IMG/VR virus record: IMGVR_UViG_3300032224_000293
Coordinates: 1-24,473 of that record
Length of the DNA stretch: 24,473 nt
Reading direction: 5' to 3' (one strand)
Source: a virus
Under the pieces are notes generated by a model that worked only from the letters and a program-made list of their open reading frames with translations, searched no databases and was not told the origin of the DNA. The stretch's first letter is position 1; each line of letters starts with the position of its first letter. The position numbers and the translations under genes are program-made. This document shows positions 6,526-24,473 of the stretch, in pieces.

Positions 6526-8196
6526 ATGACGACAGCATACACATCACTATTGGGCTTGGCACTGCCAGTCACGGGCGAATTGAGCGGCACATGGGGCGAC
6601 ACTGTAAACAACTCCATTACATCTTTGCTCGACTCCGCAGTTGCCGGTACGACTAACGTAAGCACTGATGCAGATGTAACACTGACCACAACCACAGGCG
6701 CAGCAAACACAGCCCGTGAAGCTATTCTCTTATTCTCAGGTGCGCGTACAGCTCTTCGCACAATTACAGCGCCCGCCCAGTCAAAGGTTTATACAGTTAT
6801 CAACGCCACCACAGGCGGCTACTCTGTTAAGTTGGTAGGTGTTGGCCCAACTACTGGTGTGACGATTGTTGCTGGTGAGTCTGCTGTTTGTGCATGGAAC
6901 GGCTCTGACTTTGTGAAGGTGAGTAATACGGGCGGCACAGCTTCGTTCACCAACGTTACTGTTACAGGCACAACCACTTTATCTGGCCTGACTGCTTCTA
7001 CAGCACTGGCTCTGGATGCAAGCAAAAACGTAGTGAGCGTAACGAATACAGGTACAGGCAACAATGTCTTGTCTGCTTCGCCTACATTAACTGGTACTGT
7101 TGGTGGCGCAAGTTTAACTTTGAGTTCATTGACTTCTGGTCGCGTAACTTACGCAGGAGCATCTGGTCTTCTCCAAGACTCTGCCAACTTGCTATACAGC
7201 GGCACTGACCTGACTGTTTATGGCATTACAGTAGGCCGTGGTGGTGGTGCTCAATCATCTAATACTGCTGTTGGTGCTGGTGCGTTGGCGGCTTCAAGTA
7301 GTGGTCAATGTACTGCTATTGGTGGTTCTGCCTTAGCGGTAAATACAGCAATAAATAATACTGCTGTTGGATTTCAATCGTTACTTGCAAATACGTCTGG
7401 TATTAACAATGATGCTTTTGGATATGCCGCTTTATATTCAAATACAACAGGAACATACAATGTTGCAATAGGTGGATATAACTCTAATAGTCTATCTGCA
7501 TTATTTTCAAACACAACTGGAAGTGCTAATATTGCGGTTGGAAATGGTGCATTAAAGTCCAACACCACAGCATCTAACAACACTGCTGTTGGTTATCAGG
7601 CGGGTTATAGCACTACTGGGGCAGGGACAGGTATTACTGCTTTTGGTTATCAAGCCGCTTACACTCACACTACAACAAGCCCTAATTACGCAGATACATT
7701 TATTGGTTATCGTGCAGGATACTTAACTACAACTGGTGCTGATCTAACATTTATTGGCGGTTTTGCTGGCAATTCAAACACTACGGGTTCATATAATACT
7801 GCTGTAGGTGGAGGCTCTCTTTATGCCAACACAACCGCTTCTGCAAACACTGCTGTAGGCTACAACACATTAGTAGCAAATACTACTGGCGCAGACAACA
7901 TTGCAATGGGCGTTTCAGCACTATCGTCAAATACAACAGGCGCAAGCAATACTGCTCTTGGTCGTTCCGCACTTGCATCAAACACCACAGCAGCAAACAA
8001 TACTGCTGTAGGTTATCAAGCGTTGTACAGTAATACAACTAGCAACGGAAGTATTGCTATAGGCAAAGGTGCGCTTTACTCAAACACAGGCGCTATAAAT
8101 GTTGCTATTGGTTATGAAGCGGCTTATACAAACACCACGGCAACTCAAAACGTAGTCGTTGGCTATCAAGCGGGGTATAGCAGTACCACTGGATAA
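6526..8196 (+). CDS. Tail fibre, N-terminal 556 residues, ended by an in-frame TAA
   Basis: The frame starts with an N-terminal domain typical of phage fibres (TSLLGLALPVTGELSGTWGD; VYTVINATTGGYSVKLVGVG; CAWNGSDFVKV, residues about 5-130) that should attach to the tail. A beta linker follows, then from residue 246 repeats of about 17 residues built on NTAVGYQALYSNTTG. These resemble the NSVAIG head repeats of YadA-type trimeric adhesins, which fold as a left-handed beta-roll. Eighteen repeats precede the TAA at 8194-8196. The same frame then continues without a break to 9819, so this product lacks 22 repeats and the C-terminal domain. If the stop were sense, the fibre would be 1097 residues. 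No close ribosome-binding site restarts translation after the stop. Alternatives: sequencing error, strain mixture, natural truncation or a switchable allele. Confidence 0.8.
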   Translation: MTTAYTSLLGLALPVTGELSGTWGDTVNNSITSLLDSAVAGTTNVSTDADVTLTTTTGAANTAREAILLFSGARTALRTITAPAQSKVYTVINATTGGYSVKLVGVGPTTGVTIVAGESAVCAWNGSDFVKVSNTGGTASFTNVTVTGTTTLSGLTASTALALDASKNVVSVTNTGTGNNVLSASPTLTGTVGGASLTLSSLTSGRVTYAGASGLLQDSANLLYSGTDLTVYGITVGRGGGAQSSNTAVGAGALAASSSGQCTAIGGSALAVNTAINNTAVGFQSLLANTSGINNDAFGYAALYSNTTGTYNVAIGGYNSNSLSALFSNTTGSANIAVGNGALKSNTTASNNTAVGYQAGYSTTGAGTGITAFGYQAAYTHTTTSPNYADTFIGYRAGYLTTTGADLTFIGGFAGNSNTTGSYNTAVGGGSLYANTTASANTAVGYNTLVANTTGADNIAMGVSALSSNTTGASNTALGRSALASNTTAANNTAVGYQALYSNTTSNGSIAIGKGALYSNTGAINVAIGYEAAYTNTTATQNVVVGYQAGYSSTTG

Positions 8197-9315
8197 TTTG
8201 CGGCAGTTGGCTCTCAGGCTCTGTACAGTAACACCACTGGTATTGATAATGCCGCTTTTGGTCGTTATCGAGTGTTGTATTCCAACACGACAGGAAGCTA
8301 TAACTCGGCTTTTGGCGACAGGTCGATGTACACAAACTCAACTGGTGCTAATAACACCGCTGTTGGATGGGCCGCTCTATACTCTAACACCACAGCTTCA
8401 AACAACACTGCTGTAGGTTATCAAACGCTTTACGCTAATACAACAGGAACTCAAAATACTGCAATTGGCGCATATTCAGCGGCTTCAACAACAACTGGAT
8501 ATTACAATACGTCTGTTGGCGTTACTTCTTTTAATTCAAATACAACTGGAATAGCAAATTCAGTATTTGGTACTCAGGCACTTCAATTCAACACAACTGG
8601 AAACTACAACACAGCGCTTGGTATGCAAGCATTAGCTGGTAACACCACAGCATCACAAAACACTGCAGTAGGTTATCAGGCTGGTTACTCAAATACTACA
8701 GGTGCAAGTAACTTAACAATTGGTGCTTACTCTGGTTATTCTGGTAATGGAAGCACAAGAAATACTTTTGTCGGAAATGGCTCTGGATACTATGTCACTA
8801 CTGGTAATGATAATGTGGGCGTTGGTTATGGAGCGCTTGCCTATAACAACCCAAATGCAACTGGTTCAAATAACACAGCAGTTGGCAAGGAAGCATTAGC
8901 TTATAACACCACAGTAAATAACAACACTGCTATTGGTTTTCAGGCTGGGTATACCAATACGACAGGAACTGGCATCACAGCGGTTGGCGCGTCTGTTCTT
9001 TACAGCAATACAACTGGTGTTGGAAATACAGCGGTTGGAGGTGTTCATTCTGGTTCAGTTAACCCTGCTTTGTACGCAAATACAACGGGTGGTTACAACA
9101 CCGCTGTTGGCTCTGGCGCACTGACTGTTAACACTACAGGCTCTTACAATACTGCAACAGGGCATTCGGCAGGCACTTCAAACACGGGTACGGCTAATTC
9201 TTACTATGGGGCAAACGCTGGTCTTTCCACCACATCTGGCTCTAATAATGCTTTCTTTGGCGCTGGCGCTGGTTATTACGTCAGTACGGGCTCTAAAAAT
9301 ACCATCATTGGCGGC
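7261..9315 (+). repeat. About forty YadA-head-like repeats of ~51 bp
   Basis: The N-T-A-V-G core (variants NTAIG, NVAIG, NAAFG, NTFVG) recurs about 40 times with a usual spacing of 17 codons, occasionally 16 or longer. Eighteen copies lie before the TAA at 8194 and 22 after. Many units share SNTTG or NTTASN between cores. The array has the same frame and composition on both sides of the stop, so it was one continuous reading frame. Confidence 0.85.
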
Positions 9316-9819
9316 TTTTCAGGCAACCAAGGTGGCCTAGACATTCGCACGTCAAACAACAACGTTGTTCTGTCTGATGGGGATGGAAACCCATTAGGAT
9401 ATCTCAACAGTGCTGGAAGTTTCTTTCTTGGCGCTACAAGCGCACTATCTGGCGGTAGTGCAGATAGACTTTTTCAGATTACATCAGGCACAAATGCTGT
9501 CGGCACTGCTAATAGCAACGGTTACATTGTTTATACAAAAAGTATTGAAGCTAATACAGCCACCACAATTTTGACTCCCGCAGGAATTGACCAGTGGGCT
9601 GGCGTAATTTTAATTTCTTATGTTCGCGATGCTGACCAAAACCGTTCCGGTATGTTGATGTCTCGGTACAAATACAACAGAACATTTACAACATTGTTGT
9701 CAGATTCACAAAATTCAGGTGCAACTTTTTCTATAAGCGGTAGCAATATTCAAGTAACAATTGGCGGTGCTGGAACTTATTTATGTCAAATTTCAATCTG
9801 GGGTGGAGCAGGAACCTAA
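8197..9819 (+). pseudogene. Tail fibre, C-terminal 540 codons downstream of the in-frame TAA
   Basis: This is the direct in-frame continuation of the fibre frame: FAAVGSQALYSNTTG follows the stop immediately and the repeat series continues. After the repeats comes the connector VVLSDGDGNPLGYLNSAGSF, frequent at the end of fibre repeat regions, and then a C-terminal domain of about 120 residues (DQWAGVILISYVRDADQN, GMLMSRYKYN, ending YLCQISIWGGAGT), probably the receptor-contacting or trimerising tip. The only early in-frame start candidate, a GTG at 8272, has no Shine-Dalgarno and lies inside a repeat, so independent translation is unlikely. With the TAA as sequenced this part is untranslated, yet it has no further stops, which suggests the interruption is recent or artefactual. 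Confidence 0.7.
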
Positions 9820-10379: not shown

Positions 10380-11069
10380 ATGACCGCCTTCTATGTGTAT
10401 GAACACATCCGCAAGGATACGGGGGCGGTCTTTTATGTTGGCAAAGGGCGCGGTAATCGGCGCTGCTCACAACGCGACAGGAACCAATATTGGCACAATG
10501 TTGTAAATAAGGCTGGCGGGTTTGATTTCCGTGTTGTTTGTGAAGACCAGTCTGAAGAATTGATATTGCTTGCTGAAATGGAAAAAATTGACCAGCTGCG
10601 GACGCTGGGTGTGACGCTTGTTAACTTGACCGATGGCGGTGAAGGAATTACGGGCCTGAAGCACTCAGAAGAAAGCAAACAATTGATGAGTCAAAAACTC
10701 AAAGGCAAAAGCCACAAGCATACGCCTGAGTCAATTGAGAAAATTAGGCAAGCAAATACGGGTGTTGTTTTTTCTGATGAACGCAAGGAAAAGTTGCGGC
10801 AAAAGGCTTTGGGCAGAAAGATGCCACCTCATGTAAGAGAAGCTCTTAGTGAGAAAATGAAGTCGTTTAAACATTCAGAAGAAACCAAAGAGCATTTGAG
10901 GCAAGTAAACCTTGGTCGCAAACATACGCCAGAAGCTTTAGCAAAGATGAGCGCATGGCAGAAAGATAGACCAAAGTTAATTTGCCCACATTGCAACAAG
11001 GCCGCTAGCGTTGGCATGGCTAAACGTTGGCATTTTGATAACTGTAAAATGAAAGATACAAATGGCTAA
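10380..11069 (+). CDS. Free-standing GIY-YIG homing endonuclease
   Basis: A 229-residue protein. The catalytic domain has YVY (residues 5-7) and YVG (19-21), the two halves of the GIY-YIG signature, then Arg24/Arg27 and a Glu in LAEMEKIDQL (66 or 68) as likely catalytic residues. VNLTDGGEG (81-89) closes the domain as in other phage members. Several NUMOD3-type DNA-binding motifs follow (GLKHSEESKQLMSQKLKG, KHTPESIEKIRQ, GRKHTPEALAKM). A C-terminal Cys2-His-Cys finger (CPHC ... HFDNC) is also typical of these enzymes. They cut DNA of relatives lacking the gene and spread by repair. It lies between two small late genes and overlaps the next by 8 nt, as expected for an inserted selfish gene tolerated inside an operon. 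GGGAAG before the start serves as ribosome-binding site. Confidence 0.92.
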   Translation: MTAFYVYEHIRKDTGAVFYVGKGRGNRRCSQRDRNQYWHNVVNKAGGFDFRVVCEDQSEELILLAEMEKIDQLRTLGVTLVNLTDGGEGITGLKHSEESKQLMSQKLKGKSHKHTPESIEKIRQANTGVVFSDERKEKLRQKALGRKMPPHVREALSEKMKSFKHSEETKEHLRQVNLGRKHTPEALAKMSAWQKDRPKLICPHCNKAASVGMAKRWHFDNCKMKDTNG

Positions 11070-15185: not shown

Positions 15186-18002
15186 ATGGCCCAAGCACCT
15201 CAAGCATCAATGGAACAGCCCCAGCAGGGAGGTTCGCCTTTTTCTGATCCTAATACCATGGCCATTTATGACCAGATGCGCCAGTCTGTGTCACCCAAGC
15301 AGTTTGGTGATGAGGTGTTGGCGGGCGCTGCTCAGGTGGACCCAAAGGCGGTTGATGCATTTAAGGCTGAGTTAGAGCAGATTCAAATGCCTCCTGAGGC
15401 GCTTGATTTGCTTAATAACATGGTTGATGAGATCTTGGCTAACCCTGAGAAGTACGAGGAAATTCGTGCTAAATACAAAGAAATGGGTGCCCCTGACGAG
15501 ATCCTGCCAGAGCAGTTTGATCCCCAGTTTTTTGCAGCATTAAACATGGCTGTGGACCAGATGATTGGCGCTCCTGCCGGCGCAGAAGCTTTTGCAAAAG
15601 GTGGTATTGCTGAACTCACGCCCGTGTCAAAAGCGATTGCTAACTATGGCCGCAATGGCGATACGATGTTGGCGCATATTACGCCTGCTGAAGCCCGTAT
15701 GTTGCGTCGTAAGGGCGGTAGCGGAACAATCAACCCTAAGACAGGAATGCCAGAGTTCTTTAATTTATTTAAAGAAATTGGTAATGCATTTAAGTCGGTG
15801 GGTAATGCTGTTAAAAGTTTTGCCAGTAGCACCGTGGGCAAGATTGTCACTACTGTTGCGCTTGGTTATTTTTTAGGCCCTGCCGCAGCCAATTTCTTGG
15901 GTGCAACTTCTGCTGCTGGTGTTGCTGCTGTTAGCGGTTTTGTCGGCGGTGCGGGCTCCACGCTCCTTGGTGGTGGCAACTTGAGCCAAGCTTTGAAAGC
16001 CGGTGCAATCGGTGGTTTGACTGCTGGCGCGGGTGCTGGAGTTCTGGGCGGATCAGAAGCTTTTGCTGCAAATAGTTATACAGGTCCAACCACAGTTAGC
16101 GGTCAGTATGACAAGCTTATTGGCGCTCCTACGGCGGATGTTACGACAACCACAGCCCGCGAAGCTGCTGCTCGTCAAGCTGCTATTTCCCCAACAGGAC
16201 AAGTAGCCGGGATGGCTTCTGTGCCGGATAATCCACTTATTACTGCAAGGGACGCTTACGTTCCTCCCCCTACTCAACCGTCGTTGATTGATCAGGCAAA
16301 AGATTTTTATAGCAAAAATATTTCTCCTGAGGGCATTCAACAGCAGGGTGTTCCTGCTGCCCAAAATGCAGCTGCAAAAGCTGTCACTGATTTAACCGCT
16401 CGAATTCCTGATGCTACTGCTGCGATGAAAGAAGCGGCGTATCAAAATGCATATAAAGCAGCCTTACCCGGGGTTCTTAGTACTTATGGCCCAATGACTG
16501 CTGCTGGAATAGGTGCTATTGGTTTGGCGGGTGGTTTTAAGACAAATCCTGTTACGCCTTCTAAGACTAAATCAGAATTGATGAAGCCTGCCACGCAACG
16601 TATTGCAGAACAAAATCAACAAAAACAATATTACATTCAAAACCTGCCCGGTGTGAAATATGACGAGTTTGGTGCGCCTATTTATGGCGAGTACAATCCG
16701 TTGCCTACGACTCCCGCATCAACTACTCCAACAAGTAATTTTAATCTTCCCAGCACTATTGGCGGGATTGGTTCTTTGTACACACCTCCTCCCGGCGCCA
16801 TGGGTTCACAAAAACCGATTGCTCAGCCGTACAACACTGCATCGATGTATACCAACTTGATGCCCCCACGTGGCTTTGCGGATGGTGGCGATGTTGTGCA
16901 ATCTCGTGAAAGTGCTGCCATGGTGGATGCACAGCGCGCAGCGTTGATTGCTCAAGCACAGGCATTGGGTCAAACAGGATACACGCCCTCTAGCCCCGGT
17001 AATTATGGCGTAGAACGCGGTGCATATACGCCATCCACAGGTTTTGCACAGTTTACGCAACAATATATGCAAGATCATCCGGCAGCTGCGCCTACCAGTG
17101 CGCCTGCTCAAAATACTAGCAGCTTGACTAATTCAACAACACCGGTTATTAGTCCTCCTGTAGATTCTACTTATACTTCTCCGGTTACATATAACCCTCC
17201 CGTGGATACATATCAGCCACCCGTGGACACATATCAGCCACCTGTGGATACTTACGAACCGCCAATGGATACATACGTAGATGATCCTTCTGTTACTGCA
17301 AGGGATGCTTATGTTCCTCCGATGGACACATACGTAGATGATCCTTCTGTTACTGCAAGGGACGCTTACGTTCCTCCGATGGATACCTATCAGCCGACGA
17401 TGGATGATTCGTACATTACTGCAAGGGACGCTTACGTTCCTCCGATGGATACCTATCAGCCAACGATGGACGATTCGTACATTACTGCAAGGGACGCTTA
17501 CGTTCCTCCGATGGATGCCTATCAATCACCACAAGATACTTATCAACCCCCGCAAGATAACTATCAGCCGCCGGAAGATGCATATATGTTTCCAACGGAT
17601 GCTTATCAGCCAACAGTTTACGATACGCCAGTAGATACCTATCAGCCTAGCTTTAATGCTTCGGGCGATGGTGGAAGTATGGGTGGTGGCTATGGTAGTG
17701 CGTTTAATAACAACTTTGACTACACTGGCGGTGGGGGCTACGACAATAATTCGTTTATGGACTCCCAATTTAACATGGGGGGTATTGCTTCTTTGAGCTC
17801 GGGAGGTTATCCTCGACGTACCGGTCAAATTCAGGGCCCGGGGACCGCGACCTCTGATTCAATCCCTGCAATGCTTTCTGATGGCGAATTCGTAATGACT
17901 GCCAAAGCCGTCCAAGGCGCAGGCAAAGGCGACAGACGCGCAGGAGCAAAACGCATGTATGCGCTAATGCATCAACTTGAACAAAACGCAGCACGGGGTT
18001 AA
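15186..18002 (+). CDS. Large internal virion protein with Gly-rich membrane-like segment and PP-x-DTY repeats
   Basis: A 938-residue protein. Residues about 1-130 are helical and acidic (FKAELEQIQMPPEALDLLNN). GDTMLAHITPAEARMLRR (158-175) followed by GGSGTINPKTGMPEFF is a recurring phage motif. Residues about 214-285 are an Ala/Gly stretch with little charge (VTTVALGYFLGPAAANFLGA and glycine-zipper sequence) that could enter a membrane. Residues about 650-830 are Pro/Asp/Tyr-rich repeats (YQPPVDTYQPPVDTYEPPMD; ITARDAYVPPMDTY). The C-terminus (884-930) carries GPGTATSDSIPAMLSDGEFV, also recurrent in virion proteins, and a basic helix. This fits an ejected core protein that crosses the host envelope, by inference from context. 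It is followed after 3 nt by another internal protein gene. Confidence 0.6.
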   Translation: MAQAPQASMEQPQQGGSPFSDPNTMAIYDQMRQSVSPKQFGDEVLAGAAQVDPKAVDAFKAELEQIQMPPEALDLLNNMVDEILANPEKYEEIRAKYKEMGAPDEILPEQFDPQFFAALNMAVDQMIGAPAGAEAFAKGGIAELTPVSKAIANYGRNGDTMLAHITPAEARMLRRKGGSGTINPKTGMPEFFNLFKEIGNAFKSVGNAVKSFASSTVGKIVTTVALGYFLGPAAANFLGATSAAGVAAVSGFVGGAGSTLLGGGNLSQALKAGAIGGLTAGAGAGVLGGSEAFAANSYTGPTTVSGQYDKLIGAPTADVTTTTAREAAARQAAISPTGQVAGMASVPDNPLITARDAYVPPPTQPSLIDQAKDFYSKNISPEGIQQQGVPAAQNAAAKAVTDLTARIPDATAAMKEAAYQNAYKAALPGVLSTYGPMTAAGIGAIGLAGGFKTNPVTPSKTKSELMKPATQRIAEQNQQKQYYIQNLPGVKYDEFGAPIYGEYNPLPTTPASTTPTSNFNLPSTIGGIGSLYTPPPGAMGSQKPIAQPYNTASMYTNLMPPRGFADGGDVVQSRESAAMVDAQRAALIAQAQALGQTGYTPSSPGNYGVERGAYTPSTGFAQFTQQYMQDHPAAAPTSAPAQNTSSLTNSTTPVISPPVDSTYTSPVTYNPPVDTYQPPVDTYQPPVDTYEPPMDTYVDDPSVTARDAYVPPMDTYVDDPSVTARDAYVPPMDTYQPTMDDSYITARDAYVPPMDTYQPTMDDSYITARDAYVPPMDAYQSPQDTYQPPQDNYQPPEDAYMFPTDAYQPTVYDTPVDTYQPSFNASGDGGSMGGGYGSAFNNNFDYTGGGGYDNNSFMDSQFNMGGIASLSSGGYPRRTGQIQGPGTATSDSIPAMLSDGEFVMTAKAVQGAGKGDRRAGAKRMYALMHQLEQNAARG
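16239..16267 (+). repeat. Distal copy of the ITARDAYVPP repeat core
   Basis: These 29 bases are identical to 17415-17443 and 17481-17509 in the tandem array of the same gene, and encode ITARDAYVPP in the same frame. Perfect identity, including synonymous positions, 1.1 kb away indicates recent copying or exchange within the gene. Confidence 0.8.
17259..17504 (+). repeat. Two 57-bp and two 66-bp tandem in-frame repeats
   Basis: Units 17259-17315 and 17316-17372 encode PPMDTYVDDPSVTARDAYV. Units 17373-17438 and 17439-17504 encode PPMDTYQPT, MDDSYITARDAYV. The last two differ at only a couple of bases. A 28-base core (TTACTGCAAGGGACGCTTAC and the following 8 bases) is identical in three units and in the distal copy at 16240; the first unit differs at two bases. 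Weaker PP-x-DTYQ repeats flank the array on both sides (about 17196-17258 and 17505-17655). Confidence 0.85.
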
Positions 18003-18005
18003 TAA

Positions 18006-20228
18006 ATGGCAGATACATCCGTCCAAGAATCGGTAGTCCGGGAAGCACCGGACATTGAAGCAGCCAAAGTTGGCTTAATGTCTTCTGCCAAGGCGCAGGT
18101 AGATGCAGCAAATGCCGCCGCCGCACAAGGCAGATACCTCACCCCTGATTACAAAGTACAGGGGATGACTACAGACCAGTTGGATGCGCTCCAACTGGGT
18201 CGTCAAGGTATTGGCGCATATCAGCCTTACATGACCGCCGCGGCTCAAGGCACTGCAGCCGGCGCAAATACGTTGGGCGAAGCAGCAAATGTGTTGCGTG
18301 GGGCAGATACCCGTAATCAGTTTGGTGCTGCTCAAGCGGCAATGAACAACGCTGCAGTTCCAATCAATCAAATGACGGGCGCCGCAAACCTGACAACTGC
18401 TGGTATTCCTTTGATTGCGCAGGGCGCACAAGGAATGGCAGATGCTCAACGCCTATCACTGGCCTCTACCAACCAGCCCGGATTTCAGCAGGGTATTGGC
18501 TCTTTGTATGGCGCTGCAGATGCCGCAAGAGCCGCGGCTCAATTAGGTGCTGCTCCAACTGCACAGGCTGCTCAGTTCCAAGCACCTATGAATGTTAACA
18601 ATCAGAATGTTAATGCACAAGGTATCAACGCTGCGCAAACTAATTACAACCCTAACTTGCAGACTTTTCAGATGAACCCCGCAGAGCGGGTGCAGTCTCA
18701 ATCGGTGAATACACCATTGATGAATGCTGCTCAGTCTGGATTTAGTTCTCAGGGGTTGACCGCGTCTCAAATGGGCCCTGCAGAGCAGCTTAGCACCCAG
18801 TCAATCACTGCACCGGGCACTGCACAGCAATACATGTCACCTTACCAACAAGCGGTGACTGATATTGGTGTTCGTGAAGCACAGCGCCAAGACGATATTG
18901 CACGTCAAAGCCGTAATGCCGCTGCTGTTAAATCAGGCGCGTTTGGCGGTTCTCGTCAAGCAATTCAAGAATCTGAAGCAGCCCGCAATCTGGCACAGCT
19001 CAAAGCCGATATCCAGAACAAGGGCTCTCAAGAAGCCTACATGTCGGGTCAGCAACAGTTTAACGCGGAGCAACAAGCACGGCTCGCGGCTCAGCAAGCC
19101 AATCAGCAGGCAGGTCTTACTGTGGGTCAACAAAACCTTGCTGCTCAACAAGCAACAAAGCAGTTGGGTTTTGGTGCAGATTTGCAAGTGGCGTTGGCCA
19201 ACCTTAACTCTTCACAGCAATCAAACGTCCAAAATCAAGCTGCGCAGTTGCAAGCTCAGGGTATGAATTCTCAGCAAGCACTGCAGGCGGCCTTGGCCAA
19301 TCAACAAGCTGGTCTTACTGTGGGTCAGCAGAACTTGGCTTCTCAGCAGAACACACAGCAATTGGGTGCGCAAACAGGCCTACAAACTTCTTTGGCAAAC
19401 TTGTCAAGTCAACAGCAGGCCAACGTTCAAAATGCGGCAAATGCACTGCAGGCTCAGGGTATGAACCAGAGCGCGGCTATGCAGGCAGCGTTGGCAAATC
19501 AGCAAGTTGGCTACAACACCAACGCGCAAAACGCTCAACTGCAACAGCAAACAAACCTTGCTAATCAAGGACTTCAGGGTCAATACGGCTTGGCAGGTGC
19601 TCAGTATGGTTTGCAAGCCGCTCAGCAACAAGCTGCTGCGGGTACAGGCCAAATCAATGCCGCTGCTCAACAAGCCGGTATTGAGCAAAACGCTGCAAAC
19701 ATGTACGGCAACTTGGCAGGACAGCAAGCAAACCTTGCCAATGTCTACGGTAATTTAGGCGGACAACAGGCCAATATTCTTGGTCAGCAATCCCAGTTGA
19801 ATCAATCATTGGGTCAAGGTATTGGCTCATTGGCTACTAACCAATTCAATATTGGTGCGCAAACTGCTCAAGGCCTTGGTGCATTGGGTACACAACAATC
19901 TAACATTGGTATGCAGCAAGCCGCTTTGGGTCAAAACGCACAGGCAATGGGCCAGCAAGATACTAATATGCTGTTTAATATGGGCTCTATGCAACAGAAA
20001 CAACAGCAGGCTGAGATTGATGCAGCTCGTCAGAACGAGTTGACAAAAAATATGCAGCCCTATCAACAGTTGGGATTCTTGTCGGATATTTACAAAGGCG
20101 CGCCATCCTCACAAATGGCTGTTACGACACAAAGTCAAGCCACGCCCAGTCCTTTCCAACAGATTGCCGGATTAGGTATTGGCGCAACTGCTGCAGCGGC
20201 GGCAGCGGCAAGAACCGGAATTATTTAA
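18006..20228 (+). CDS. Ala/Gln/Asn-rich internal virion protein with 11-residue periodicity
   Basis: A 740-residue protein starting 3 nt after the preceding stop. Low hydrophobic content, extremely rich in Gln, Ala, Asn and Gly, no Cys and few aromatics. Residues about 278-330 contain SPYQQAVTDIGVREAQRQDD and AAVKSGAFGGSRQAIQESEA, a segment I have seen in other phage internal proteins. From residue 366 two 66-residue units follow (366-431, 432-497), each six 11-residue repeats usually starting with Asn (NLAAQQATKQL, NLNSSQQSNVQ, NQAAQLQAQGM, NSQQALQAALA). The 11-residue rhythm seems to continue towards residue 600. This predicts long right-handed amphipathic helices. A role as ejection or core protein is inferred from position among other internal proteins. 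The C-terminus is Ala-rich (GIGATAAAAAAARTGII). Confidence 0.6.
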   Translation: MADTSVQESVVREAPDIEAAKVGLMSSAKAQVDAANAAAAQGRYLTPDYKVQGMTTDQLDALQLGRQGIGAYQPYMTAAAQGTAAGANTLGEAANVLRGADTRNQFGAAQAAMNNAAVPINQMTGAANLTTAGIPLIAQGAQGMADAQRLSLASTNQPGFQQGIGSLYGAADAARAAAQLGAAPTAQAAQFQAPMNVNNQNVNAQGINAAQTNYNPNLQTFQMNPAERVQSQSVNTPLMNAAQSGFSSQGLTASQMGPAEQLSTQSITAPGTAQQYMSPYQQAVTDIGVREAQRQDDIARQSRNAAAVKSGAFGGSRQAIQESEAARNLAQLKADIQNKGSQEAYMSGQQQFNAEQQARLAAQQANQQAGLTVGQQNLAAQQATKQLGFGADLQVALANLNSSQQSNVQNQAAQLQAQGMNSQQALQAALANQQAGLTVGQQNLASQQNTQQLGAQTGLQTSLANLSSQQQANVQNAANALQAQGMNQSAAMQAALANQQVGYNTNAQNAQLQQQTNLANQGLQGQYGLAGAQYGLQAAQQQAAAGTGQINAAAQQAGIEQNAANMYGNLAGQQANLANVYGNLGGQQANILGQQSQLNQSLGQGIGSLATNQFNIGAQTAQGLGALGTQQSNIGMQQAALGQNAQAMGQQDTNMLFNMGSMQQKQQQAEIDAARQNELTKNMQPYQQLGFLSDIYKGAPSSQMAVTTQSQATPSPFQQIAGLGIGATAAAAAAARTGII
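19101..19496 (+). repeat. Two 198-bp tandem repeats (66 residues each) with partial third
   Basis: Units 19101-19298 and 19299-19496 each encode a block starting NQQ-A-G-LTVGQQNLA and ending LQAALA. A third begins at 19497 (NQQVGYNTNAQ) and diverges. Each block divides exactly into six 11-codon subunits, mostly beginning with Asn. DNA identity is clearly lower than protein similarity, so the duplication is not recent. Confidence 0.8.
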
Positions 20229-20237
20229 GGACGCACC

Positions 20238-22622
20238 ATGAAGAATGAGATTTTAAAGCGTGCCATGTTTGCGATGCCTTTGACAAAAGATGCCCGCAAC
20301 TCAGGAATCATGGCGGGATTTGACGATCAGATGCCCGAGGCTCCCGAGGACAATGTTGAGGAAATGCCTCAAATGGCGCGTACCCCACAGAATCCTGAAA
20401 TTTTGATGAATACTTTGCGGGGCGACATGCGTTCTGTTGATGCTCGCTATAAAGAATTGGCTCAAATGGTTGGTGAAGATGCCGCCATGGAAACTCCCCC
20501 TGAAGTGTTGGCCATGCTCCAAGGTCAAATGGGTGCTCAGCAGCAACCACAAGGCGGTATTGGTAGCTTGCCACAAGGCCAACAGATGACTCCGCCTCCT
20601 ATGGGAATGCCTGATCAAGGTGGTATGCCTCCACAGGGAGAAATGCCCCCACCCGGACCGGAGGGCGCTGGCCCTTTTCCACAGGGCGGGGCTGAGCAGG
20701 CTCCGCCCACCCCTGATGGCATGCCCCCCATGACGGCAGCTTTTGGTGCGTTTGTCACTCCGGCTACCCGCGCTATGCAATTTATGGGCGATAAAGCTGC
20801 ACAATATGGGCCTGCCCTAAATCAGTACCTTGGCAACCTGACGATGCGCGCTCAGCCTACGATTCAGCGCCTGACTGGTGGTAATCCTGCTATGCCTTTG
20901 TCTGTTCAAGGACGAGAGACCTTGGTCCAAGGACCTGCGGGCACGGTCATACAAGGTGCAGGAACACAATTCGCTCCTTATACAACGATGGGCCCTTTGA
21001 TGAGCCCTACGTTTACTGAAGGTATCAAAATGGGTGTGCAACGCGCAGCACAAGAATACCCACGTGTAACAGAAGCGTTGTCCCGTATTTCTCCGGGCTT
21101 GGGGTTAACGGCGGGCGCGTTGTCTGCCATGCCTTTTATGAAAAGTGGTAACGAAGGCCGTACTCCTGAACAAGAAGCAGCTTATCAGGCCTTGGTTGCA
21201 CAGATCCCCGGAAATACACGTGCGCCTGTGGAGCAAGCGCCAAGCCCCACGGCTCCTGCTCAAAACCCTGCTCGCTTGAAAGCTACAACAGACGCAGAAC
21301 AAGCAGCGATTGATGAGCGTCAATTAGCTGCAGCAGAGAAGCCAAATACTGATCCTTTAGGTGCTTTTATTGATCAAAAATTAAAGCTCTTTAATGAGCG
21401 CGAAGCTAAAGGATCTGTTAAGGAAAAAACCCGTGCAGAACGGACCAAAGAAGGTTATCAAGAGCTGGCTCCTTTGTTCCAAGAGATCTTGGGTGACAAC
21501 AAAGAAGACATGAAGACAAATGCTTTGTTGATGCTGGCGGATGCTGGCTTCAAACTGGCATCTAGCCGTCAGCCTACTTTTGGAATGGCTGTAGGTGAAG
21601 CTGCTGCTGGGTTACCAACAGGGTTTATGGCGCTGTTGGCACAGGCTAGAGATCGTGACCTTAAGATTAAATCCTCGGCACTGTCACAGGCGTATACAGA
21701 TGTTCAAGAGCAAGACAAGTATGCTCAGCAGCTTAAGACGAAGATGTTGGACATTGATGGCCGAATACTTTTGGAGCAGATTAAACAAGGAAATGGTACT
21801 CTTGAAGATGGTGGTGCAGGTCTGCTTATTGGTAAAAATAAACAAAACGGTTTTGTAGGTGTATCAATTAATCCAAAAGATCCAACAGTGCAATCGGCTA
21901 TTCAAAGTCGTTGGACACTGCGCGATACAGACAATCCTTTTGTTGAAAATCGCGGACAAGCGCCAGCAACAATAGAAACAGATAAGGGCGAGCGGCTTAA
22001 ACTGACTGCATCCTTACGTGCAATGGATAATAGTTTGAGAACTTTGGATGAGCTTAGAGGCGTATATACTGGTTTGTATAGCCCCGGCACATGGGTTGTG
22101 GATAAAATCAATAACTTAGTTGTTCCTGTAACTGGTGGTCTAGTTCGTCCTGATGTTGATCAAGCTTCTGCTGCTCAACGTGTTCAAACTGGCATGAATA
22201 GTTTAATAAAGAACCTTGCTGCCTCTGGTGATTCAGGACGTGTTGCTGTGCAAGAACAGGAATGGGCACGTAAGACTGCAGAAAATATTGCTGATCCTGT
22301 AGCTTTCTTCCAAAATAAAGAATTGGCAGCAAAAGGGTTTGTAACATTGGAAGCTGGTTTACGTAATGCACGTCAGCAGATTTTGACTCAATTAGGTTAT
22401 GAAAATAATGATTTGTCTATGCGTGTTCCTAGTACTGGTACACAGAATGACCCATTTGTAATTCCTGCTGATAAAGATGGCCAACGCGTGATGTTTAACT
22501 TCCTTGGTAGTACTATTGGAAAACTGCAAGATCAAAATGCAATGGTCTATGTAAGAATGCCAAACAATACTATTCAACAGTTTAATCCTATTCAATTGCG
22601 TGGCTTGATAGGAAACCAATAA
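20238..22622 (+). CDS. Large internal virion protein with Pro/Met/Gln-rich region
   Basis: A 794-residue protein with AGGACG before its ATG. It opens ILKRAMFAMPLTKDARNSGI, MAGFDDQMPEAPEDNVEEM. Residues about 75-165 are low-complexity Gly, Pro, Met and Gln (MPPQGEMPPPGPEGAG), probably unfolded. Residues about 375-530 are strongly helical (KEKTRAERTKEGYQELAPLF, DNKEDMKTNALLMLADAGFK) with an Ala/Gly-rich hydrophobic part (GMAVGEAAAGLPTGFMALLA). The C-terminal part is mixed alpha/beta, with GTQNDPFVIPADKDGQRVMF near the end. Similar proteins occur after the previous type in related phages. No enzymatic motif is recognised. The next gene starts on the last base of its stop (TAATG). Confidence 0.6.
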   Translation: MKNEILKRAMFAMPLTKDARNSGIMAGFDDQMPEAPEDNVEEMPQMARTPQNPEILMNTLRGDMRSVDARYKELAQMVGEDAAMETPPEVLAMLQGQMGAQQQPQGGIGSLPQGQQMTPPPMGMPDQGGMPPQGEMPPPGPEGAGPFPQGGAEQAPPTPDGMPPMTAAFGAFVTPATRAMQFMGDKAAQYGPALNQYLGNLTMRAQPTIQRLTGGNPAMPLSVQGRETLVQGPAGTVIQGAGTQFAPYTTMGPLMSPTFTEGIKMGVQRAAQEYPRVTEALSRISPGLGLTAGALSAMPFMKSGNEGRTPEQEAAYQALVAQIPGNTRAPVEQAPSPTAPAQNPARLKATTDAEQAAIDERQLAAAEKPNTDPLGAFIDQKLKLFNEREAKGSVKEKTRAERTKEGYQELAPLFQEILGDNKEDMKTNALLMLADAGFKLASSRQPTFGMAVGEAAAGLPTGFMALLAQARDRDLKIKSSALSQAYTDVQEQDKYAQQLKTKMLDIDGRILLEQIKQGNGTLEDGGAGLLIGKNKQNGFVGVSINPKDPTVQSAIQSRWTLRDTDNPFVENRGQAPATIETDKGERLKLTASLRAMDNSLRTLDELRGVYTGLYSPGTWVVDKINNLVVPVTGGLVRPDVDQASAAQRVQTGMNSLIKNLAASGDSGRVAVQEQEWARKTAENIADPVAFFQNKELAAKGFVTLEAGLRNARQQILTQLGYENNDLSMRVPSTGTQNDPFVIPADKDGQRVMFNFLGSTIGKLQDQNAMVYVRMPNNTIQQFNPIQLRGLIGNQ

Positions 22623-24473
22623 TGCCAACCTTAATGAATTCCCGTGGGGAGATGGTAGATTTCTCAACCGGAGAGATTATTGGCCGTGCTGAGGGAGCAC
22701 CTACAATGACTGCCGATCCACTGGCAGGGGGAAAGTCCGCTCCTGATGTACAAACACAAGGCATGGATCGTGTTAATGGCTTGCTAAATAATCTTTCATG
22801 GGGCTTTAACACAGGCCTTTTTGCTTTTCCTGATGCTGCTCAACGCCTTATTGGCAAAGGCATGGGGATGGATGAGAAAGACGTATTTCAATTTACCAAA
22901 CTTTTTAACAAGGGTGTACAGGCTCCTAGAAATGCTGAAGAGCGTTTTGCCCGTGCAATTACCGAAGGCATTGGTGGATCCATGCCCTTCACTGGCGTTT
23001 TAGCCTATGCAGGGTCCGTTAGACCGCTTGTTTCTGCAGCGCAACCCGCAACAGGCATACTTAAAGGAATTGCAAATGATGCTATCAAATATGTTCAAGA
23101 AAGCCCAAGACTTGCTGCAGCACTGGACATCGCGTTCGGTGCAGGCTACGAAGGACTTCGTCAAACGGTTAAAGAAACAGTAGACGACAGCAACCCCTAC
23201 AAAAAGGTTTATGAAGAGCTGCTCCCCGCAGCAGCATTTATTGGCCTTCCTGTAGCTGCCGCAAACCTGCCCTCAGTTCGGGCAATCAAATGGATTTCGG
23301 ACAAAGTCAAAGGTGTATCTAATGGCTTGGGCGAGATCGAAAAGGAGACCTTAGAAGGTCTTCCCAAGGTATACAGATTACCGCTTATCAATGTGCTGCC
23401 AACCATGTTGATGAAGCGCGCTGAGGGCAAATTGGCACAGGTGTTTGGCCCTATCTCCGAGAGCCCCGAAGCACAGCAAGCATTGAAGCAACTTGAAGCT
23501 GCTCTGGCTGATCCTCGCGTCGCAAATGCGGGCTTCATGTTTGATGCTGCCGAGAAAACAATGTACTCACCCTTGGTGCAGCGCAAAGCAGAACTCCTGC
23601 AGCAGCTTGGCCCCAAGGAACTTGAGATTACCAAAGAGCGTATCAACCAAAACCAGCAGGCGCTGGACAGTTTGTTCTCAAGCTTCTCACCAGAAGCACG
23701 CAAGCCCATTCAAGAAGCGTTTACCGCGGCCCAAGCAGATCGTCAGCAATTCTTTGAGAGCTTGCTGAAGAACCAAAAGGACCTGACAGACGCGGAAGTG
23801 ATGTCAATCTCCGAGCGCCTAGGCCCACAGAACATTGACTTGCTTAATGATGAACTGCGCGGCACGTTAATGGCCCGCATGGAGATGGATTCCAAAGCAC
23901 GTGGCGATATCTTGCGCCGTATGGGGTTGAAGCAAGCCGTGTCGCCAGAAGGCCTGCCGATGCCTACGCGTGATCAGGGTATTTCTTTGTTCCCTGCTCG
24001 TGATATTGAATCTGCTGCCAAAGAATTGAGTGCAAAATATTCGCCTGAGCGTCCATCGATGAACGTTCAAGTGCCTGAGCCCATTCGTTTGTTAAAAAAC
24101 TTTGTTCGCACACAAGAGCTTTCCCGCGAGAAGATGGAAGCGGACAAGTTGGTAGAACTAACAGACCAAGCAATCAGTGAACAGTTGTCAAACCTAGGTA
24201 AGACACTTGATCCTGACATGCTTGCTGGACTGCGCGATGCCGTGCTTTCTGCTGTGCGTGGCGAGAAACCAAAGACTGGCCGCAAGACCGCCAGTTTGAG
24301 TGAGTTGTTGCCTGCCCCGGATGCAAAAGGCAATATCTCCATTCGTGCCATTGTGCCGGGTCGCAACATTGTGATTAACCCTGCACAGCTAAAAGCAGAT
24401 GCAGCACGTATTGCCGAAGCCAATACAGCGATTGATTTGAACTTGCCAGAGGCGATTGATTACTTGCAGTATG
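22622..24473 (+). CDS. Very large internal virion protein, N-terminal 617 codons, off the right edge
   Basis: The ATG at 22622 overlaps the previous stop by one base, and the frame stays open for 617 complete codons to the end of the window. It starts MPTLMNSRGEMVDFSTGEII and is mostly helical. Residues about 57-90 (NNLSWGFNTGLFAFPDAAQR) and a glycine-rich stretch (GIGGSMPFTGVLAYAGSVRP) may be membrane-active. Charged coiled-coil-like helices follow (AQQALKQLEAALADP, LGPKELEITKERINQNQQAL). No lysozyme or transglycosylase motif is seen in the part visible; in other podoviruses such domains may lie elsewhere in a giant ejection protein. Role as ejection protein is inferred from size and context. 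Confidence 0.65.
   Translation, partial: MPTLMNSRGEMVDFSTGEIIGRAEGAPTMTADPLAGGKSAPDVQTQGMDRVNGLLNNLSWGFNTGLFAFPDAAQRLIGKGMGMDEKDVFQFTKLFNKGVQAPRNAEERFARAITEGIGGSMPFTGVLAYAGSVRPLVSAAQPATGILKGIANDAIKYVQESPRLAAALDIAFGAGYEGLRQTVKETVDDSNPYKKVYEELLPAAAFIGLPVAAANLPSVRAIKWISDKVKGVSNGLGEIEKETLEGLPKVYRLPLINVLPTMLMKRAEGKLAQVFGPISESPEAQQALKQLEAALADPRVANAGFMFDAAEKTMYSPLVQRKAELLQQLGPKELEITKERINQNQQALDSLFSSFSPEARKPIQEAFTAAQADRQQFFESLLKNQKDLTDAEVMSISERLGPQNIDLLNDELRGTLMARMEMDSKARGDILRRMGLKQAVSPEGLPMPTRDQGISLFPARDIESAAKELSAKYSPERPSMNVQVPEPIRLLKNFVRTQELSREKMEADKLVELTDQAISEQLSNLGKTLDPDMLAGLRDAVLSAVRGEKPKTGRKTASLSELLPAPDAKGNISIRAIVPGRNIVINPAQLKADAARIAEANTAIDLNLPEAIDYLQY

Follow-up and report, generated by a model that had tools for sequence, protein, structure and literature searches.

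Eleven-residue repeats of variable number in a candidate DNA-ejection protein of uncultured phages

The window, i.e. the whole 24,473-nucleotide stretch of the virus record IMGVR_UViG_3300032224_000293 that was analysed, carries on its plus strand an open reading frame of 740 amino acids (18006-20228), which we assign to the internal virion/DNA-ejection type based on a match to phrog_4287 and a conserved gene order. All neighbouring genes described here lie on the same strand. Upstream is a protein of 938 amino acids (15186-18002) with short C-terminal matches to tape-measure PHROGs. Downstream follow a 'mid' protein of 794 amino acids (20238-22622), with which the hendecad protein forms a natural fusion in some relatives, and a 'large' protein of at least 617 amino acids (22622-24472), which runs off the window and whose syntenic counterpart in phage DSL-LC04 carries the annotation 'DNA transfer protein'. 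The 938-aa neighbour contains in-frame tandem repeats with 21-bp and 66-bp units that are up to 97% alike (17186-17579). They encode Pro/Tyr/Asp-rich repeats of 7 and 22 residues, a repeat type that differs from the hendecads.

The 740-aa protein can be divided into several parts, all encoded on the plus strand. A conserved core helix region (residues 277-365, 18834-19100; MSPYQQ...GAFGGSR...QQFNAEQQ) is defined by invariant columns in two family alignments (A1, 32 sequences; A2, 48 sequences, i.e. the window and 47 loci; long members cut at 560 aa) and is common to short phage proteins. Position 19101 of the window corresponds to residue 366, where a first block of 66 residues begins (366-431, 19101-19298), followed by a second (432-497, 19299-19496) and by four more in-phase 11-mers (19497-19628) that start with Asn at residues 498, 509 and 520 and with Gly at 531, the rhythm fading afterwards. 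Gly/Gln/Asn-rich predicted helices with weaker periodicity come next (residues 542-680, 19629-20045), and the insertion formed by the array ends within them, around residue 617. Alignments A1 and A3 and a profile comparison delimit a conserved C-terminal part (residues 676-740, 20031-20225; PYQQLGFLSDIYKGAP...).

An earlier note on this DNA had described two 66-residue blocks, each divisible into exactly six 11-mers. This is what we find: ten of the twelve 11-mers begin with Asn and two with Gly, and fifteen consecutive in-phase 11-mers span residues 366-530, 13 of them starting with Asn and two with Gly. Column information over these residues is high at period 11 (z = 12.2), while among periods 5-39 all except 11, 22 and 33 stay at z ≤ 3.3. 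The two blocks (366-431 and 432-497) have a protein identity of 71% and a DNA identity of 64%; different codons are used at 23 of the 47 identical residues, and no DNA-level tandem repeats were found in the hendecad gene. The Fourier analysis that the note had proposed for residues 340-620 gives a peak of the large hydrophobic residues (LIVMFYW) at 3.67 residues (= 11/3) with a power of 11.5, whereas 99.8% of shuffled sequences give a maximum below 9.3. Counting Ala as hydrophobic yields no significant signal (5.6 vs 6.7 at 95%). The 11-residue periodicity together with a hydrophobic period of 3.67 residues is that of a hendecad (11/3) repeat.

Plain residue identity within the single sequence is highest at lag 66 (z 9-12), followed by lag 33 (z 4-5), and reaches only z 2-3 at lag 11; the two longer lags prevail because the 66-residue unit is duplicated. 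Single-sequence autocorrelation at lag 11 was too weak alone to serve as proof and was dropped, and the periodicity was therefore analysed across the family. A scan of viral contigs returned 201 stretches, 200 of them encoding relatives, and the best 80 were kept. From 83 loci with a match, 77 complete ORFs remained after removal of incomplete ones, corresponding to 62 distinct proteins and 51 representatives at 85% identity. Lag signals summed over the 51 representatives form a comb at 4, 7, 11, 15, 18, 22, 29, 33, 37, 44, 48, 55, 62, 66 and on, that is, at multiples of 11/3, with a significance that is overstated as the Stouffer sums take relatives as independent. In anchored tests of 48 members (L008, L082 and L083 being left out) the best period among 7-16 is 11 for 47 of the 48. 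Lags 33 and 66 also exceed lag 11 in most family members, and with one 66-residue unit taken per member the signal is still present at 11, 18, 22 and 33. Across the 48 members position 1 of the hendecad is Asn in 62% and Gly in 18%. Leu prevails at position 6 and is also frequent at 2 and 10 (rivalled by Gln at 10), Gln dominates positions 3 and 7, and Ala is prominent at 4, 8 and 11. The 11-residue rhythm in the 740-aa protein is thus real. The term 'strict' used in the earlier note is justified by the family, although the single sequence alone looks weaker than that. The suggestion that the rhythm persists beyond the two blocks stands in part: three more in-phase 11-mers follow and the relatives show a weaker signal at 11, 18 and 22, but the query fades after about residue 540 (lag-11 z 0.5 in residues 500-740).

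Searching BFVD with Foldseek (3Di+AA) retrieved proteins of uncultured Caudovirales phages with E values down to 6.9e-19 and identities up to 48%, which belong to the same family as the hendecad protein. At E 0.001 or better the matches comprise only uncharacterised or unnamed phage relatives, the named ones being listed as uncharacterised. Eight relatives occur in bacterial genome contigs, from Bacteroidota, Verrucomicrobiota, Campylobacterota and Alphaproteobacteria; these may be phage contigs binned into genomes, and in none of the eight is the hendecad signal strong (lag-11 z ≤ 2.8). All four groups consist of two-membrane bacteria.

Length changes in the family follow the same unit. When distinct proteins with an identity of 75% or more are compared in pairs, 27 of the 28 indels in the Q/N-rich part that span four or more residues have a length divisible by 11 (11, 22, 33, 44, 55, 66, 77, 88, 110 and 132 were seen), compared with nine of 61 outside it. 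These close pairs replace the larger set of all 490 pairs with at least 50% identity (381 of 651 indels in the Q/N-rich part and 124 of 1018 elsewhere being multiples of 11), which was set aside because its pairs depend on one another and the periodicity itself biases where gaps are placed. The distance between two flanking anchor motifs likewise clusters modulo 11 (R 0.65, approximate 95% limit 0.33), with a best period of 11.0 in the range 2.5-15, for the 27 of 51 members that carry both motifs (the other 24 are without one of the two). Multiples of 11, even in close pairs, could arise from recombination between repeats, and the indel steps alone are therefore no proof of a structural constraint. 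The array is under strong selection. Comparison with L007 gives a dN/dS of 0.040 for residues 366-530, and comparison with L002 one of 0.031, as low as in the conserved core (0.042 and 0.034, respectively) and below the 0.07-0.12 of the other parts where it could be computed. L007 is about 87% identical to the window protein, and the two arrays differ in length by 110 residues.

The assignment to the ejection-type proteins, which the earlier note had also made, is supported by profile similarity, gene order and a virion-proteome note on a relative. In the window protein, residues 598-735 match PHROG 4287 ('DNA ejection protein') with an E value of 2.9e-7. Of 32 family members, 11 match this profile at E ≤ 0.01; a DSL-LC04 protein does so over its length and phiM5_27 of Sinorhizobium phage phiM5 over its full length (E 6.5e-91). 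Tape-measure profiles gave no match to the hendecad protein at E 0.01 or better, the 938-aa neighbour alone having its short C-terminal ones, and in Pfam the window protein matched no family, while A1 gave nothing beyond single matches at chance level. The record of phiM5_27 notes its detection in the phage particle proteome, and the gene directly precedes three putative internal virion proteins; the morphology of phiM5 is LUZ24-like according to a reference title. In the DSL-LC04 genome, which contains portal, adaptor ('Pam1 adaptor protein') and stabilization genes, the order stabilization - tape-measure-like - hendecad protein - mid - DNA transfer protein is the same as in the window. The order hendecad protein-mid-large is kept in most representatives with enough flank, so the hendecad gene comes first in its cluster before two larger proteins, as expected of a podophage ejection protein. 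The protein is probably carried inside the head of a short-tailed phage.

A search with residues 265-378 showed that the MSPYQQ...GAFGGSR core also occurs in phage proteins of 254-470 amino acids and in one of 1185. When a profile of 14 short relatives is aligned with the hendecad family (E 2.1e-43), query residues from about 382 to 617 fall into a gap, which shows the array to be a variable-length insertion into a core of about 300 residues found in other phages. Fusions to the following gene also occur: of seven members that exceed 990 aa and have no mid gene of their own, six (L011, L037, L040, L056, L062 and L070) end in a part that matches the mid protein found elsewhere in phages, and the seventh, L052 (1008 aa), gave no match to the mid protein. 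The core is also found fused to an SLT transglycosylase, in MW202675, which we count in favour of an ejection protein. Based on these data we favour, with about an even chance of being right, the view that the protein is an internal virion (ejection) protein from a short-tailed phage and that its helical conduit or stalk is extended by whole hendecads.

The gene context also bears on a different reading, in which the array is the coiled-coil stalk, trimeric or otherwise of low order, of a tail needle, spike or fibre; the Asn/Leu pattern would then build a right-handed three-helix rod of variable length and no DNA conduit would be formed. Several relatives are annotated 'tailspike', and a Peptidase_S74 chaperone, more typical of trimeric fibres and spikes, is present in three of the seven relatives that were scanned: it lies C-terminally in phiM5_27 and DB2_18 and also occurs in MW202675. 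The last (L099 5716-9273) is a single ORF composed of the core domain, the S74 chaperone and an SLT transglycosylase, in which S74 self-cleavage could separate an ejection protein from the enzyme. A two-seam (second-harmonic) helix pattern occurs in 48 of 48 members (permutation P 0.015), and the control trimeric needle Sf6 gp9 has it too. We rejected this pattern as evidence for a barrel, since it fails to discriminate given the result with Sf6 gp9; the hendecads of phiX174 H do not reach significance. However, the gene adjoins those of internal virion and cell-wall-degrading proteins, the fusion of the six long members to the next protein and the PHROG 4287 match are at odds with a stalk, and no S74 match was obtained for any of the 32 A1 members. 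We therefore regard the coiled-coil stalk as rather unlikely compared with an ejection protein.

The structure predictions bear on the internal virion reading in a different way. AlphaFold2 models of the monomer have modest confidence (mean pLDDT 56.8 for the whole protein with a 32-row alignment; 65.2, with a pTM of 0.32, for residues 265-740 with 48 rows). Helix is predicted across nearly all of residues 279-696, and Pro is absent from residues 280-684 and accounts for three of 6,660 residues in the family segment. Together with the 11/3 period this agrees with the helical hendecad pattern expected from the earlier note. The predicted helix breaks at 386-390, 418-421, 451-456 and 484-487, about every 33 residues, and because of these breaks an uninterrupted single rod is not predicted; the model rather suggests hairpins or a collapsible bundle. 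In a sequence search of the PDB neither A1 nor phiM5_27 had a match at E 1, and the matches of A3 were at chance level, with E values of 0.65 or worse. A fold search of the PDB gave no significant match (best E 3.9); a chain of the PhiM1 ejectosome came second, with E 5.3 and a VIA Z of 4.1, and was not taken as evidence. The structural alignment behind that Z score covered 24 chains only and, for the most part, the first 120 residues of the model.

From these breaks one could argue that the true fold is organised at the level of 33 and 66 residues, each 33 forming a helix and a turn of a helical-hairpin solenoid or collapsible bundle, with the 11-residue rhythm as a by-product of duplication. 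The dominance of lags 33 and 66 in the query and most members agrees with this, as do AlphaFold turns near QGMN with pLDDT 85-90 and weaker breaks at LG..TG. Yet the hendecad phase is kept across the predicted turns, periodicity of 11 persists inside a single 66-residue unit, and lengths change by 11, 22, 44, 55, 77, 88 and 110 in addition to 33 and 66. A fold defined solely at the 33/66 level thus seems improbable to us, about as much so as the coiled-coil stalk, and the hendecad remains the unit in which we would describe the lengthening of the ejection protein.

The composition of the array bears on the remaining explanations. As the earlier note had remarked, the content of Gln and Asn is very high (27.9% and 12.7% in residues 366-530); Ala makes up 19.4%, charged residues only 1.2% and aromatic ones 1.8%. 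The note had also drawn a parallel to membrane-binding 11-mer repeats. Repeats of this length in amphipathic helices are indeed found in synuclein and perilipin, where charged residues flank the hydrophobic face, and ejection proteins meet membranes. A surface helix of this kind is nevertheless very unlikely here because only 1.2% of the residues are charged, and the scarcity of aromatic residues argues in the same direction. A low-complexity, possibly prion-like Q/N-rich filler with no defined structure would agree with the roughly 40% Q+N and the only moderate AlphaFold confidence, but is highly improbable in view of a dN/dS of about 0.04, the length steps of 11 and the conserved lane of Asn (with some Gly) at position 1.

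A literature search, in which coverage of subscription journals was slight, found no paper describing the array and nothing on glutamine-rich internal virion proteins of phage; judged by title, a single paper on hendecads (PMC7354561) concerns a phage protein of such kind. The protein described there, phiX174 H, forms a decameric tube built of hendecads and heptads, with amide and guanidinium side chains facing the lumen (N, Q or R at 18 of 23 positions) (PMC7354561). H is helical, has three hendecads that start with an amide residue, carries amide-rich inward side chains and serves DNA entry (PMC7354561); the window protein would resemble it in its predicted helicity, its Asn-led hendecads, its amide-rich composition and its putative role in DNA entry. 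In contrast, H is a microvirus protein of 328 amino acids with three hendecads followed by eleven heptads (PMC7354561), whereas the window protein has about fifteen hendecads and almost no charge and belongs to a tailed phage. The H tube is the closest working analogue that we found, and the likeness is at most one of working: homology is without support, hhalign of A1 against the single H sequence giving a probability of 0.05%.

With T7 gp14 and Peru-2 P2_38 the hendecad protein shares its place as first gene of the ejection trio and its predicted helicity. Ejected gp14 is described as an antiparallel helix pair, six copies of which form a channel in the opened nozzle (PMC11784390), and ejected P2_38 as a two-helix hairpin in the opened tail channel, as for gp14 (PMC13320782). 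T7 gp14 differs in having 196 amino acids and no 11-residue signal; hhalign of the core-family alignment A3 against the single sequences of T7 gp14 and Sf6 gp11 gave no match, and no profile similarity was found to Sf6 gp12 either. The PHROG 4287 members including phiM5_27 have the same core, with a profile match over most of the matching short relatives, but these relatives (254-470 aa) are without the hendecad array, and phiM5_27 adds an S74 domain.

For the hendecad protein we infer ejection, oligomerisation and the formation of a conduit along the following lines. The ORF occupies the gene position of T7 gp14 and P22 gp7, the first of a three-gene cluster, and the ancestral core of about 300 residues is presumably mostly helical. 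A helical segment of this core, a gp14-like element, could have been lengthened by units of 11 residues and three turns in which Asn, Gln, Ala and Leu abound. Several copies might be ejected ahead of the DNA and pack side by side to become part of a trans-envelope conduit, the array setting the length of that part. A nearly uncharged, amide-rich surface would let the DNA slide and allow the helices to unfold readily for their passage through the tail. By analogy with the known systems, a lining of the trans-envelope channel by the array, as raised in the earlier note, is plausible. It would be odd, however, for a conduit that matches a fixed envelope thickness to differ by 110 residues between proteins of about 87% identity. 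The more specific proposal that a widespread group of uncultured short-tailed phages possesses a length-tunable, nearly uncharged, Asn/Gln-lined helical DNA conduit of 11-residue modules, convergent with the phiX174 H tube and changed in whole three-turn steps, is possible, though we would put its chances well short of even.

Transport of DNA across the whole envelope by short-tailed phages is known in detail for few systems. The family offers a natural length series, in which a predicted helical part varies by three helical turns under strong selection, and the composition of the array resembles that of the one well-studied amide-lined DNA tube. The series could be used to ask if walls of amide-rich helices provide a general means of moving DNA, an idea put forward in the work on that tube (PMC7354561).

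A second repeat of about 32-33 residues (QMNPAERV / QMGPAEQL) is present at residues ~200-270 of the ORF at 18006-20228, in the low-confidence N-terminal part of the model; residue identity in residues 1-300 gives z 4.2 at lag 32 and z 3.2 at lag 33. Elsewhere in the window, the adjoining ORFs at 6526-8196 and 8272-9819 both match the same three tail-spike/structural PHROGs, which suggests that these tail genes are duplicated or mosaic, and a homing endonuclease with a NUMOD3 motif (10380-11069) lies amid the structural genes.
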